This document shows positions 47,393-50,229 of a stretch of DNA of 64,000 nt, piece after piece. The notes below the pieces were generated by a model. That model did not search any database, was not told the origin of the DNA, and saw nothing but the letters and a program-made list of their open reading frames with translations. The DNA is from Gemmatimonas sp. GTDB taxonomy: Bacteria; Gemmatimonadota; Gemmatimonadetes; Gemmatimonadales; Gemmatimonadaceae. The DNA is taken from assembly GCA_025361705.1 (NCBI GenBank), contig JANYJW010000051.1, positions 1 through 64,000 of the forward strand. The letters are read 5' to 3'. Each line of letters begins with the position of its first letter. Positions within the stretch are counted from its first letter, which is position 1. Made by a program: the position numbers and the translations under genes.

Positions 47393-48031
47393 ATGGTCGC
47401 AGGGGCGGCAATGGCGCTCATCCTGGCTCTCGGCGTCGGCGGTCAGGGTGCGAATGACCCTGCGCCGGCTGGCTTGGGCCCACGCAATGCGGCGACGCGC
47501 GTCGGCGTGGCACGTCACGTGGAGACGAATGCCCCGGCCATGGGTGCTCTGGCGGACGATGCGTCCGCCGACACTGTGCGCGTGCGTCGCCGCGCCGTGC
47601 GGTTGAGCGAGGCGTATTACACGCGGGCGAAGATCCACAAGTACTCGTCGTATCTCATGCTGCCGACCTTTGCCTTCATGTACGCCGGGGGCCAGCAGCT
47701 GATGACCAAAGGACGCAATGCGCCGAGTTGGGCGGTCAACGGCCACGGCATCGCTGCCGGCGTGGTGACCGGGTTGTTCGCGGTCAACACCGCGACCGGG
47801 GCGCTGAACTGGTACGAGACGCGCAACCAGAGCGACGGCTTTGCCTGGCGCACGACGCACGCCGCGCTGATGCTCGCGTCGGACGTGGGGTTTGCCGTCG
47901 TGGGCAGCCTGGCGACGCCGGCCGAGAACTCGCTGTCCAAGCGTCGGCTGCACAAGACGCTCGCCGTCACCTCCATCTCCGCCGCAACGGTGTCGTACTT
48001 GATGATGCTCCTGCCGTTTGGGGGGAAGTGA
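47393..48031 (+). CDS. Four-helix membrane protein with four conserved histidines (b-type-cytochrome-like), paralogue A
   Basis: A 212-residue protein. After a signal-like helix come four membrane helices, each with one histidine: H82 (KIHKYSSYLMLP), H118 (NGHGIAAGVVTGLF), H156 (RTTHAALMLASDVGF) and H187 (RLHKTLAVTSISA). The last gene of the cluster encodes a paralogue with all four in the same places. Four membrane histidines in four helices is the di-haem arrangement of cytochrome b561-type proteins, so haem binding is likely but inferred. ATG 47393 has GGAG upstream and begins the signal peptide. It heads a set of five co-directional genes containing two Rieske proteins. TTATCTTT at 47277 may be promoter sequence. 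Confidence 0.75.
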   Translation: MVAGAAMALILALGVGGQGANDPAPAGLGPRNAATRVGVARHVETNAPAMGALADDASADTVRVRRRAVRLSEAYYTRAKIHKYSSYLMLPTFAFMYAGGQQLMTKGRNAPSWAVNGHGIAAGVVTGLFAVNTATGALNWYETRNQSDGFAWRTTHAALMLASDVGFAVVGSLATPAENSLSKRRLHKTLAVTSISAATVSYLMMLLPFGGK

Positions 48032-48032
48032 G

Positions 48033-48530
48033 ATGCCGGACATCGAAACGCTCGTGGCGTTCGCCAAGCCGTGGGCGAAGTTCTATTCCAAGTCGTCGCC
48101 CACGCAGGCCGTGCTGATGTTCATGCACCTGGCCGGCGTGCTGGGCGGTGGTGGACTAGCCATTGCCGCGGATCGCGCGATGTGGAAAGCCCGCTCGGCG
48201 ACGGATGAGGTGCGCGCGCGCCTGCTGGCAGAGGTGGATGCGATCCACCGTCCCGTGCTCATCGGCCTCGCGATGGCCGTGGTGTCGGGGCTCATCATGA
48301 CGAGCGCCGACATCGGGACGTTCCTGACATCGCCCATCTGGTGGGGCAAGATGGTTGCGTTTGCCCTGCTGCTCGCCAATGGCGCGTGGCTGCAGTCGGT
48401 CGAGTGCGGCATGCAGCGCTCGCCGTCGGCGGCCTCCTCTGCGTGGGCGAAGCTCGTCCTGTCGTCCCGCTTCAGCTACACGCTGTGGTTCGCCGTGGTG
48501 CTGGGCGGCGTACTCCTGAAGAACGCCTGA
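48033..48530 (+). CDS. Four-helix membrane protein of unknown function
   Basis: A 165-residue membrane protein with four hydrophobic segments: AVLMFMHLAGVLGGGGLAIA, PVLIGLAMAVVSGLIMTSAD, WWGKMVAFALLLANGAWLQS and SYTLWFAVVLGGVLL. One His lies in the first helix (FMHLAGV) and another just before the second (AIHRPVL). It resembles small uncharacterised CopD/DUF2269-like membrane proteins in shape only. The start is one base after the preceding stop, so it is translationally tied to the paralogue-A gene. A membrane partner for the neighbouring Rieske proteins is a reasonable inference. Confidence 0.7.
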   Translation: MPDIETLVAFAKPWAKFYSKSSPTQAVLMFMHLAGVLGGGGLAIAADRAMWKARSATDEVRARLLAEVDAIHRPVLIGLAMAVVSGLIMTSADIGTFLTSPIWWGKMVAFALLLANGAWLQSVECGMQRSPSAASSAWAKLVLSSRFSYTLWFAVVLGGVLLKNA

Positions 48531-48553
48531 TTCCCCTGATCCCCCCTGTTGCC

Positions 48554-49051
48554 ATGAGCTCCCACGATTGCGCGGGTGACTGTCCCGTCGCTCGCCGCAC
48601 CTTCCTGAAGGACGTGTCCATCTTTACCGCGGCGCTGGTCGCGGCGGGGCTTGCCCCGCGCGGGGCGTTGGCTGCGCCGAGTCCCATTCGCGCGCTTTCG
48701 CGCGTGGCGGCTGACGTGCGCTATCCGATTCCGGCGAAGGACGGCGTGCAGTTCGACGACAAGAATGAAGTGATCCTCGTGCGCAACGCGGGGCATGTGT
48801 ACGCGTTCGCGCTGTCGTGCCCGCACCAGAACACGGCGCTCAAGGCGGATCCTGCCGGCGGCGGATTCTGGTGCTCCAAGCATGAATCGCGATACAAGTT
48901 CGATGGCCAGTTCATATCGGGGCGCGCAACGCGCAACATGGACCGTCTGGTGATTCGCAGGGACGGCGCTTCGGTGGTAGTGAACGTGGACAAGTGGTAC
49001 GAGTCCGACTCCGAGCCCACGCAGTGGGCCGGTGCGCAAGTCACGGTTTGA
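48554..49051 (+). CDS. Tat-exported Rieske [2Fe-2S] protein 1
   Basis: A 165-residue Rieske protein. A twin-arginine signal (RRTFLKDVSIF, R14-R15) precedes a hydrophobic stretch that may remain as an anchor. The cluster ligands are C89-P-H91 (SCPHQN) and C107-S-K-H110 (WCSKHES), the classical CxH...CxxH pattern. It carries one-electron chemistry at the periplasmic face. No cysteine pair for the disulfide of respiratory bc1 Rieske proteins is visible, suggesting the low-potential type. It lies 23 bases after the membrane-protein gene and 11 before the second Rieske gene. Confidence 0.88.
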   Translation: MSSHDCAGDCPVARRTFLKDVSIFTAALVAAGLAPRGALAAPSPIRALSRVAADVRYPIPAKDGVQFDDKNEVILVRNAGHVYAFALSCPHQNTALKADPAGGGFWCSKHESRYKFDGQFISGRATRNMDRLVIRRDGASVVVNVDKWYESDSEPTQWAGAQVTV

Positions 49052-49062
49052 CCGGAGCTTCC

Positions 49063-49542
49063 ATGGCGGACGAGCATGTCTGTGATCCAGGCTGCGCACT
49101 GCGACGGCGGGACTTTCTTGGCGCCGCGGCGCTGGCGGCACTGGCGTTGCTCGACACGGCGTGCGGCAATGGCATCATCGGTCCGGCAGACGCGGGCGTG
49201 CAGGCGGGCGGGTCAACGACCACCGCCAACGGCGGCCTGCTGGTGACGCTGTCGGCGTTCTCGGCGCTCTCCAGCACCGGCGGCATCGCGCGCGTCGATG
49301 GCGGCCGTGGCCGTCCCGTGGCGCTGGTGCGCACCGGCGCGACATCGTTCATCGCCTACTCGCTCGTCTGTCCGCATCAGGGTTACACGGTCGACGTCAA
49401 CGGCAGCTCGTTCTACTGTCCGGCGCACGGTGCGCGCTTTTCGAGCACCGGCGTGAACAACGGGGGCCAGCGGACCGGCAACCTCGCGGTGCGCCAGACG
49501 GTCTATGATGCCGTCGCGGGGACCGTGACGATCAATCCGTAG
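49063..49542 (+). CDS. Tat-exported Rieske [2Fe-2S] lipoprotein 2
   Basis: A 159-residue Rieske protein with a combined signal: twin-arginine RRRDFLGAA and a lipobox at LDTAC (C34). It is therefore probably exported folded and then lipidated. Cluster ligands are C103-P-H105 (VCPHQGY) and C119-P-A-H122 (YCPAHGARF). It is distinct from its neighbour in sequence and signal. Two Rieske proteins in one operon, both exported, suggest a chain or two alternative partners for the flanking membrane proteins. Confidence 0.88.
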   Translation: MADEHVCDPGCALRRRDFLGAAALAALALLDTACGNGIIGPADAGVQAGGSTTTANGGLLVTLSAFSALSSTGGIARVDGGRGRPVALVRTGATSFIAYSLVCPHQGYTVDVNGSSFYCPAHGARFSSTGVNNGGQRTGNLAVRQTVYDAVAGTVTINP

Positions 49543-49599
49543 CAGCTGCCGTTCACGCTTCCCGCGAGTCGGCCAGATCCTCTCATCGTTGGTGTGCTC

Positions 49600-50229
49600 A
49601 TGAAAGCAGGTGTCGTCCTCGCGTTGCTCGTGGCATCCGGAGCAGGCGCTCAGGGAACCGTCGCAGCGGACAATAGCGGAAGCCTCGTCGGGCCTGGGCC
49701 CCGCGTCGAGGCATTGCGCGTCGGCGTCGGCGCCATGGAGCTCGACACCGTCAGGGTCCGTCGCAAGGCCGTGCGGCTGAGTGAGGCATATGATTTCCGC
49801 CGAAAGGTGCACAAGCTGGCGTCCTACGCCACGCTTCCCCTGTTTGTCGCCGAGTATGCGGCCGGCGACCAGTTGATCAAGAAAGGTCGCAACGCGTCGG
49901 GTTGGGCGCGTGACTTCCACGGTGTCGGTGCGGGAGTCATTGCCGGGCTCTTTGGCATCAACACGGTGACGGGCGGGCTCAACTGGTGGGAAACGCGCAA
50001 TCAGACCGAGGGTCGCACGTGGCGCACCGTGCACTCGGCGCTGATGCTGCTGGCGGACGCGGGATTCGTGGCGACCGGCGCGCTGGCCGACGGCGAGGGG
50101 GGTGACTATCCCTATGCAGGCAACACGGGCAATGTGGGCACCCGGAACACGGCCCACCGGAATATGGCGGTCGCCTCGATGTCGGTGGCGACGATCTCGT
50201 ACCTGATGATGCTGCTACCCGGGAAATAG
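49600..50229 (+). CDS. Four-helix membrane protein with four conserved histidines, paralogue B
   Basis: A 209-residue paralogue of the protein encoded at 47393. Shared segments include TVRVRRKAVRLSEAY, KGRNASGWARDFHGVGAG, NTVTGGLNWWETRNQ and ATISYLMMLLPGK. Histidines H71, H107, H145 and H186 align with H82, H118, H156 and H187 of paralogue A, one per helix. A signal peptide precedes the helices. ATG at 49600; GTG at 49594 is also possible. Duplication of this gene around the Rieske pair suggests a heterodimer or two complexes. It ends the cluster before a terminator-like hairpin (50287-50313). Confidence 0.75.
   Translation: MKAGVVLALLVASGAGAQGTVAADNSGSLVGPGPRVEALRVGVGAMELDTVRVRRKAVRLSEAYDFRRKVHKLASYATLPLFVAEYAAGDQLIKKGRNASGWARDFHGVGAGVIAGLFGINTVTGGLNWWETRNQTEGRTWRTVHSALMLLADAGFVATGALADGEGGDYPYAGNTGNVGTRNTAHRNMAVASMSVATISYLMMLLPGK

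Follow-up and report, generated by a model that had tools for sequence, protein, structure and literature searches.

To our knowledge, Rieske iron-sulphur proteins linked to quinones are known only in association with the cytochrome b of the bc1 and b6f complexes. Rieske proteins of the bc type carry disulphide cysteines in both of their cluster-binding motifs, and a serine and a tyrosine near the cluster raise its potential. Here we describe a cluster of five genes, designated A, C, R1, R2 and B, in DNA of Gemmatimonas sp. (assembly GCA_025361705.1, contig JANYJW010000051.1, positions 1 to 64,000; this stretch of 64,000 nucleotides is referred to as the window), in which two exported Rieske proteins are encoded together with four-helix membrane proteins that do not match the cytochrome b profile PF00033. 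Most of the cluster recurs in many related bacteria, and its products probably form a small membrane device that moves electrons between buried haems and two external iron-sulphur proteins. Our literature searches on Rieske proteins, cytochrome b561, Gemmatimonad bacteria and cysteines in the n-region of twin-arginine translocation (Tat) signals returned no description of this cluster.

Conservation and organization of the cluster

The five genes lie in the same direction on the + strand in the order A, C, R1, R2, B, with intergenic gaps of 1, 23, 11 and 57 bases. The product of gene A (47393..48031) is a membrane protein of four helices in which four histidines are invariant, a putative di-haem-b protein, and gene B (49600..50229) encodes a second protein of the A family with the same four histidines. 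The product of gene C (48033..48530) is another four-helix membrane protein. R1 (48554..49051) is a Rieske protein with a Tat signal and no lipobox, belonging to a family of 84, while R2 (49063..49542) is a Rieske lipoprotein with a Tat signal from a family of 85; both match PF00355. This composition (five co-directional genes, matching histidines in A and B, four helices in C and two Tat-dependent Rieske proteins, one of them a lipoprotein) had been given in a preliminary description of the window, and it is confirmed here.

The distribution of the cluster was surveyed in 395 Gemmatimonadota genomes, using a profile built from A and B to find the A family. A is present in 121 genomes and C in 118, with both in 108, A alone in 13, C alone in 10 and neither in 264 (p = 3e-69 by Fisher's test, uncorrected for kinship). 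We further compared 110 A-centred loci, comprising the window, 29 automatically selected and 80 hand-picked regions, mostly with better-scoring A matches, some of them cut by contig or fetch ends. In the stretch seen, a same-strand Rieske gene was found in 98 of the 110 loci and a same-strand C gene in 82. The commonest arrangements are A-C-R1-R2 (46 loci), A-C-R1 (18), A-R2 (11), A alone (11) and A-R2-C-R1 (7). The genes thus stay together and keep their order among relatives, and the four histidines of A are retained as well (see below), so that neither of the two outcomes named in the preliminary description as speaking against its proposal was observed. A scan of 84,980 species genomes with two strict peptide patterns recovered eight named loci, seven of them titled Gemmatimonadetes or Gemmatimonas and one titled "bacterium"; because the patterns were strict, more distant relatives elsewhere are possible.

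The preliminary description had treated the five genes as one possible complex. Most of the cluster is indeed conserved, but the operon looks like two membrane/Rieske pairs, A with R2 and C with R1, rather than one unit that needs both A and B, because R1 tracks C, because A loci without C have R2 more often than R1, and because C with R1 also occurs without A. R1 was found in 78 of the 82 loci with C; in the 28 loci without C, R1 was found in 4 and R2 in 16. The gene immediately after C is R1 in 76 of 84 cases, and in 113 cases for A the next gene is C in 70, R2 in 22 and R1 in 6. C and R1 occur together in 3 of the 10 genomes that have C and no A.

A and B share 57% identity, and this close pair was found only in the genome from which the window derives (the host genome) among 10 genomes of the genus in the survey, eight of which have one A-family match and one of which (G115) has a second, more distant match. 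B is absent from the corresponding place in the relatives examined. An origin of B as a fresh tandem duplicate of A is not supported, because the two fall apart in a 28-row tree, where L004/L005 are the neighbours of A (95/93) and L017 is that of B (95/92). An in-frame GTG at 49594 precedes the start of B given here (49600).

The genes that flank the cluster, an ABC-F type ATPase gene upstream and an acyl-CoA dehydrogenase gene downstream, are both on the opposite strand, and the cluster therefore stands alone. The flanking genes of the window also include one for an ACT protein.

The four-histidine proteins A and B

The four histidines fall in four helices of the 212-residue protein A (codons at 47636, 47744, 47858 and 47951 on the + strand) and at matching positions in B (49810, 49918, 50032 and 50155, + strand), each near a predicted helix start. 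They are retained in 112, 111, 112 and 112 of 112 non-identical members of the A family, and the separation of the second and third histidines is exactly 38 residues in all 111 members measured. Each histidine lies on the conserved face of its helix, with offsets of 16, -10, 9 and 33 degrees when the histidine itself is omitted from the calculation; the chance of four independent random angles all falling within 33 degrees is approximately 1 in 900. The AlphaFold model of A is a four-helix bundle (helices 73-109, 112-142, 150-172 and 181-206) with a predicted local distance difference test score (pLDDT) of about 90; residues 1-65 have no confident prediction. In this model the antiparallel helices would put the first and third histidines at one end of the bundle and the second and fourth at the opposite end, a pairing that we infer. 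The invariant histidines and the helix faces are as expected for two bis-histidine b-haems, a well supported reading of the family's sequences.

Searches against Pfam with 10 members of the A family gave matches to DUF4079 (PF13301) in 8 (best 3.1e-5), to the prokaryotic cytochrome b561 family PF01292 in 5 (best 4.1e-4) and to PF03188 in 1 (0.13), all below the curated cut-offs; for A of the window the sole match was to PF06965, the NhaA family discussed below. These sub-threshold matches of b561 type weakly back the assignment of two haems to A. No over-cut-off match to DUF4079 was found in 101 genomes, PHROGs returned nothing for A or C, and a plasmid collection contained no match for A.

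Gene C

Four long helices are predicted for C, in a model of low confidence (mean pLDDT 65). In the C family, His68, Lys102, Asp43 and Asn112 are kept in 83 of 83 sequences and His28 in 82 of 83, with one gap, so that His28, His68 and Lys102 are effectively invariant. Among 7 members of the family, DUF2214 was matched by 5 (best 3.4e-4), CopD by 1 (1.5e-4) and UPF0093, the HemJ family, at 0.083, all of these matches being weak; C of the window scores 15.6 bits, where the cut-off is 34.1. A sequence profile of C compared with the PDB reached at best 0.041, to designed repeat proteins. C-family genes that have neither A nor a Rieske gene beside them in the stretch retrieved were seen at L160, L162-L166 and L172, some of them in genomes without A.

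Rieske proteins R1 and R2

Both R1 and R2 match PF00355 over the cut-off (about 1e-7) and contain the CxH...CxxH ligand pattern, located between 48818 and 48883 in R1 and between 49369 and 49428 in R2 (both + strand). The ligands are kept in both families except for one gap in each. The best solved relatives of R2 are Rieske subunits of b6f (1e-7), and the first solved match of R1 is also a b6f Rieske subunit (1.9e-5), with AioB structures at 5e-4. The motifs in the window, CPHQNT/CSKH in R1 and CPHQGY/CPAH in R2, lack the disulphide cysteines of bc-type proteins, which are present in two bc1-type Rieske open reading frames (ORFs) of the same phylum (CTHLNC/CACH). At the positions that raise the potential in bc1, R1 has serine and tyrosine, and its family has serine in 83 of 84 and tyrosine in 77 of 84 members, whereas the R2 family has alanine in 73 of 85 and phenylalanine in 76 of 85. 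Because of this difference the potential of R1 should be higher than that of R2. Some R2-type ORFs (L021, L022, L045, L049 and L114) match the R2 profile twice, as double Rieske domains.

A pair of cysteines was found directly ahead of the Tat motif in both proteins. In the n-region of the R1 signal (48569..48598, + strand) a CX3C motif at 48569-48583 precedes the twin arginines at 48593-48598, and in that of R2 (49081..49110, + strand) the corresponding positions are 49081-49095 and 49105-49110. A CX2-3C motif directly before the Tat motif is present in 83 of 84 R1 and 73 of 78 R2 family ORFs with a Tat motif (loci L012-L120), in a scan of 40 residues upstream that may extend before the start codon. 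For comparison, the host genome has 24 matches to TIGR01409, 21 of them with a recognisable twin-arginine motif; CX2-3C occurs in two of these, which are R1 and R2, and in none of the other 19 Tat signals counted. The three matches left out have no twin-arginine motif as written, and one of them (L146) had an upstream CX2-3C that is possibly untranslated. In a looser set with a 25-residue window the motif was found in 78 of 79 R1, 47 of 53 R2 and 1 of 36 other ORFs, many of the latter not being true Tat proteins. It is absent from all 3 Rieske ORFs with a Tat-like motif (one of them doubtful) that were taken from other loci, and two bc1-type Rieske ORFs of the phylum do not have it.

We know of no function for a cysteine pair before a Tat motif. 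The pair in R2 would be removed with the signal, and therefore any function should precede export. As a guess, the pair could play a checking or holding part in cluster insertion or Tat targeting. It turns the clearance of iron-sulphur proteins for export into a question that is simple to ask and to test.

A proposed route for electrons

These results lead us to propose, with somewhat better than even confidence, that the cluster encodes a haem-Rieske electron-transfer module of the cytoplasmic membrane, built from two membrane/Rieske pairs. What the analysis shows is the order of the genes, their joint occurrence, the invariant residues, the separability of the two pairs and the Tat signals, and haem binding, partner contacts, topology, potentials, the quinone and the direction of electron flow are what we infer. 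In the proposed module A, and its second copy B, would be a four-helix protein with two b-haems stacked across the membrane, one bound on one side by the first and third histidines and the other on the opposite side by the second and fourth. C, the other four-helix protein of the module, would probably hold one haem. The Tat system would export the finished Rieske proteins, of which R2, anchored by its lipid, would pair with A, and R1 with C. The most likely path would lead from menaquinol through the haems of A to R2, at lower potential, then to R1, at higher potential, and on to a periplasmic acceptor, with C perhaps passing electrons from the membrane to R1 or in the opposite direction. A bolder version of this proposal, which we put forward only tentatively, is that the cluster encodes a Rieske/b-haem complex of a wholly new class, without kinship to cytochrome b, in which A with R2 and C with R1 would be independent pairs and act as the two steps of a ladder of potential between quinol and periplasm, and the cysteine pair of the Tat signals would check or hold the cofactor before export. 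If so, it would be a third link between quinones and periplasmic carriers, beside bc1/b6f and alternative complex III (ACIII).

Several observations weigh against the proposed module. No Rieske gene was present in the stretch seen at 12 of the 110 A loci, and C lacks a Rieske neighbour in 7 of the 10 A-less genomes that carry it, one of these being near a contig end. One member of the A family has methionine in place of the second histidine. A profile-profile comparison (hhalign) of the A family with 10 b561 rows of the same phylum, left from 12 loci after two fragments of 15 and 20 residues, whose frame start had been shifted by the contig end, were dropped, was not significant (E 0.16); Foldseek found no match in the PDB with E<=0.001 for either membrane protein, the best values being 0.095 for A and 0.38 for C, and a sequence profile of A found no relative there (best E 0.8). 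The count of lysine plus arginine per segment of A is 5.39 in the N-terminal segment and 2.38, 4.06 and 2.59 in loops 1-3, which favours an N-terminal segment inside the cell, yet 101 of 111 members have a hydrophobic N-terminus that could be a signal peptide. The lipobox of R2 bears on the question as well (cysteine codon at 49162-49164, + strand). A lipobox-like site is present in 66 of 78 R2 relatives, and the residue at +2 is glycine in 57, serine in 8 and alanine in 1, never aspartate. In E. coli, glycine or serine at this position directs a lipoprotein to the outer membrane; if that rule holds here, R2 would be favoured to reside there, away from A. Unless the bacteria studied here depart from the rule, this speaks against a close association of R2 with A.

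Place in energy metabolism and other explanations

The preliminary description suggested that the cluster could carry electrons between quinol and periplasm without a standard cytochrome b. One form of this idea would make it a stand-in for bc1, the missing quinol:cytochrome c reductase of the phylum. The host genome (2.97 Mb in 71 contigs, 93% complete) has no PF00033 match, and R1 and R2 are its only PF00355 matches. According to a survey of Gemmatimonadota energy metabolism (PMC9426454), which left complex III open, petB is found in only 23% and ACIII in <10% of genomes, and novel complex III modules may exist. However, A is not associated with a lack of cytochrome b, as PF00033 is found in 67 of the 121 genomes with A compared with 142 of the 274 without it (p = 0.58). 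NrfD matches occur in 386 of the 395 genomes, and the host genome contains genes in the ACIII order for a multihaem cytochrome c, a molybdopterin/iron-sulphur protein, an NrfD protein and a cytochrome c (L177:4965-12770 in G000:C28), with no Pfam match for the gene at the ActF place. The five genes also include no c-type cytochrome. The absent association and the ACIII-like cluster led us to reject a replacement of bc1, and we consider the stand-in role rather improbable. In the host genome, ACIII probably carries electrons from quinol to cytochrome c. The Rieske cluster is most likely an extra route from quinone to periplasm and not a plain substitute for bc1, because the ACIII-like cluster is present and the A family is unassociated with the absence of PF00033. 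The earlier reading is partly supported: operation without a standard cytochrome b agrees with a host genome that has no PF00033 match, but the ACIII-like cluster is present. KEGG-based surveys may miss the ACIII-like cluster in Gemmatimonadota.

Coexistence with a probable complex III makes a side function plausible. MsrQ-type haem proteins pass electrons to MsrP, and the module could similarly belong to a repair or reduction system, in which electrons from quinol would pass outward through A and the Rieske proteins to a periplasmic substrate such as an oxidised protein, a metal or an oxygen species. Haem modules with four histidines in four helices attached to periplasmic domains are known, as in Sco3746 (PMC5449189). 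We nevertheless regard a repair system as unlikely, as no substrate enzyme is encoded by the five genes and the flanking genes of the window point to none. There is little to recommend the notion that the four histidines bind a non-haem metal, or that A and C are maturation factors for the Rieske proteins, acting in haem or iron-sulphur insertion or Tat quality control. The weak likeness of C to CopD and HemJ would fit it, and the CX2-3C pair in both n-regions suggests a shared handling step before export, but at some loci A or C has no Rieske gene nearby, and the spacing of the histidines and their paired placement at opposite ends of the bundle fit bis-histidine haem. Least credible is that A is a shortened Na+/H+ antiporter of NhaA type and not a haem protein. 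One result speaks for it and against haem: PF06965 matches A at 6e-6 with 25.8 bits, over the cut-off of 23.5, and also matches 9 of 10 family members. The match, however, spans only profile positions 241-373 of 374, and B scores 16 bits, below the cut-off; the full-protein NCBIfam NhaA models give 14-16 bits against cut-offs above 400. Invariant histidines on four helices and Rieske neighbours are not features of NhaA. The likeness may come from a short motif, LPxFAFxYAG, and the identity of A (47393-48031) as NhaA was rejected on the partial coverage of the profile. Automatic annotation may label the A family as Na+/H+ antiporters given the over-cut-off score.

Comparison with known systems

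Outside bc1, Rieske proteins of Tat type or of accessory role are known in other settings, including AioB, the small subunit of arsenite oxidase, whose structures are matched by R1, and HucE of the group 2a hydrogenase, where hucE is described as encoding a Rieske-type protein (PMC7784904). The present cluster differs from both in that the genes scanned around it in the window include neither a hydrogenase gene nor one for the large subunit of arsenite oxidase. C weakly resembles the HemJ, CopD and DUF2214 proteins in having a histidine in its first helix and a lysine in its third, together with the weak profile matches, but it falls below the DUF2214 cut-off and it adjoins and co-occurs with a Rieske gene.

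A resembles the cytochromes b561 (PF01292, PF03188, DUF4079) in its four helices, in four histidines that would lie at two levels and in its sub-threshold Pfam matches. It differs in having no match over a cut-off and in its Rieske partners, and PF01292 proteins proper, two in number, are encoded elsewhere in the host genome. Because the profile-profile comparison with b561 proteins finds nothing, the likeness is one of function, and family membership is not supported. The two haems proposed in the preliminary description by analogy with b561 accordingly keep the backing of the conserved histidines and helix faces, though not that of common membership in the b561 family. Sco3746 offers a parallel, with four membrane histidines proposed to bind haem b and a Tat-dependent extracytoplasmic redox domain (PMC5449189); there, a molybdenum-cofactor domain is fused to the membrane part, whereas here the Rieske proteins are separate.

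With bc1 and b6f the cluster shares one or more Rieske proteins and a membrane protein that would hold two b-haems, and the solved structures closest to R2 and first matched by R1 are subunits of b6f. It differs in having no PF00033 cytochrome b and no cytochrome c1 or f gene, in its second membrane protein C, in the 212-residue A with its four histidines in four helices, and in Rieske proteins that lack the disulphide cysteines. A conserved pairing of Rieske proteins with an unrelated four-histidine membrane protein would test how much of the bc1/b6f machine is essential.

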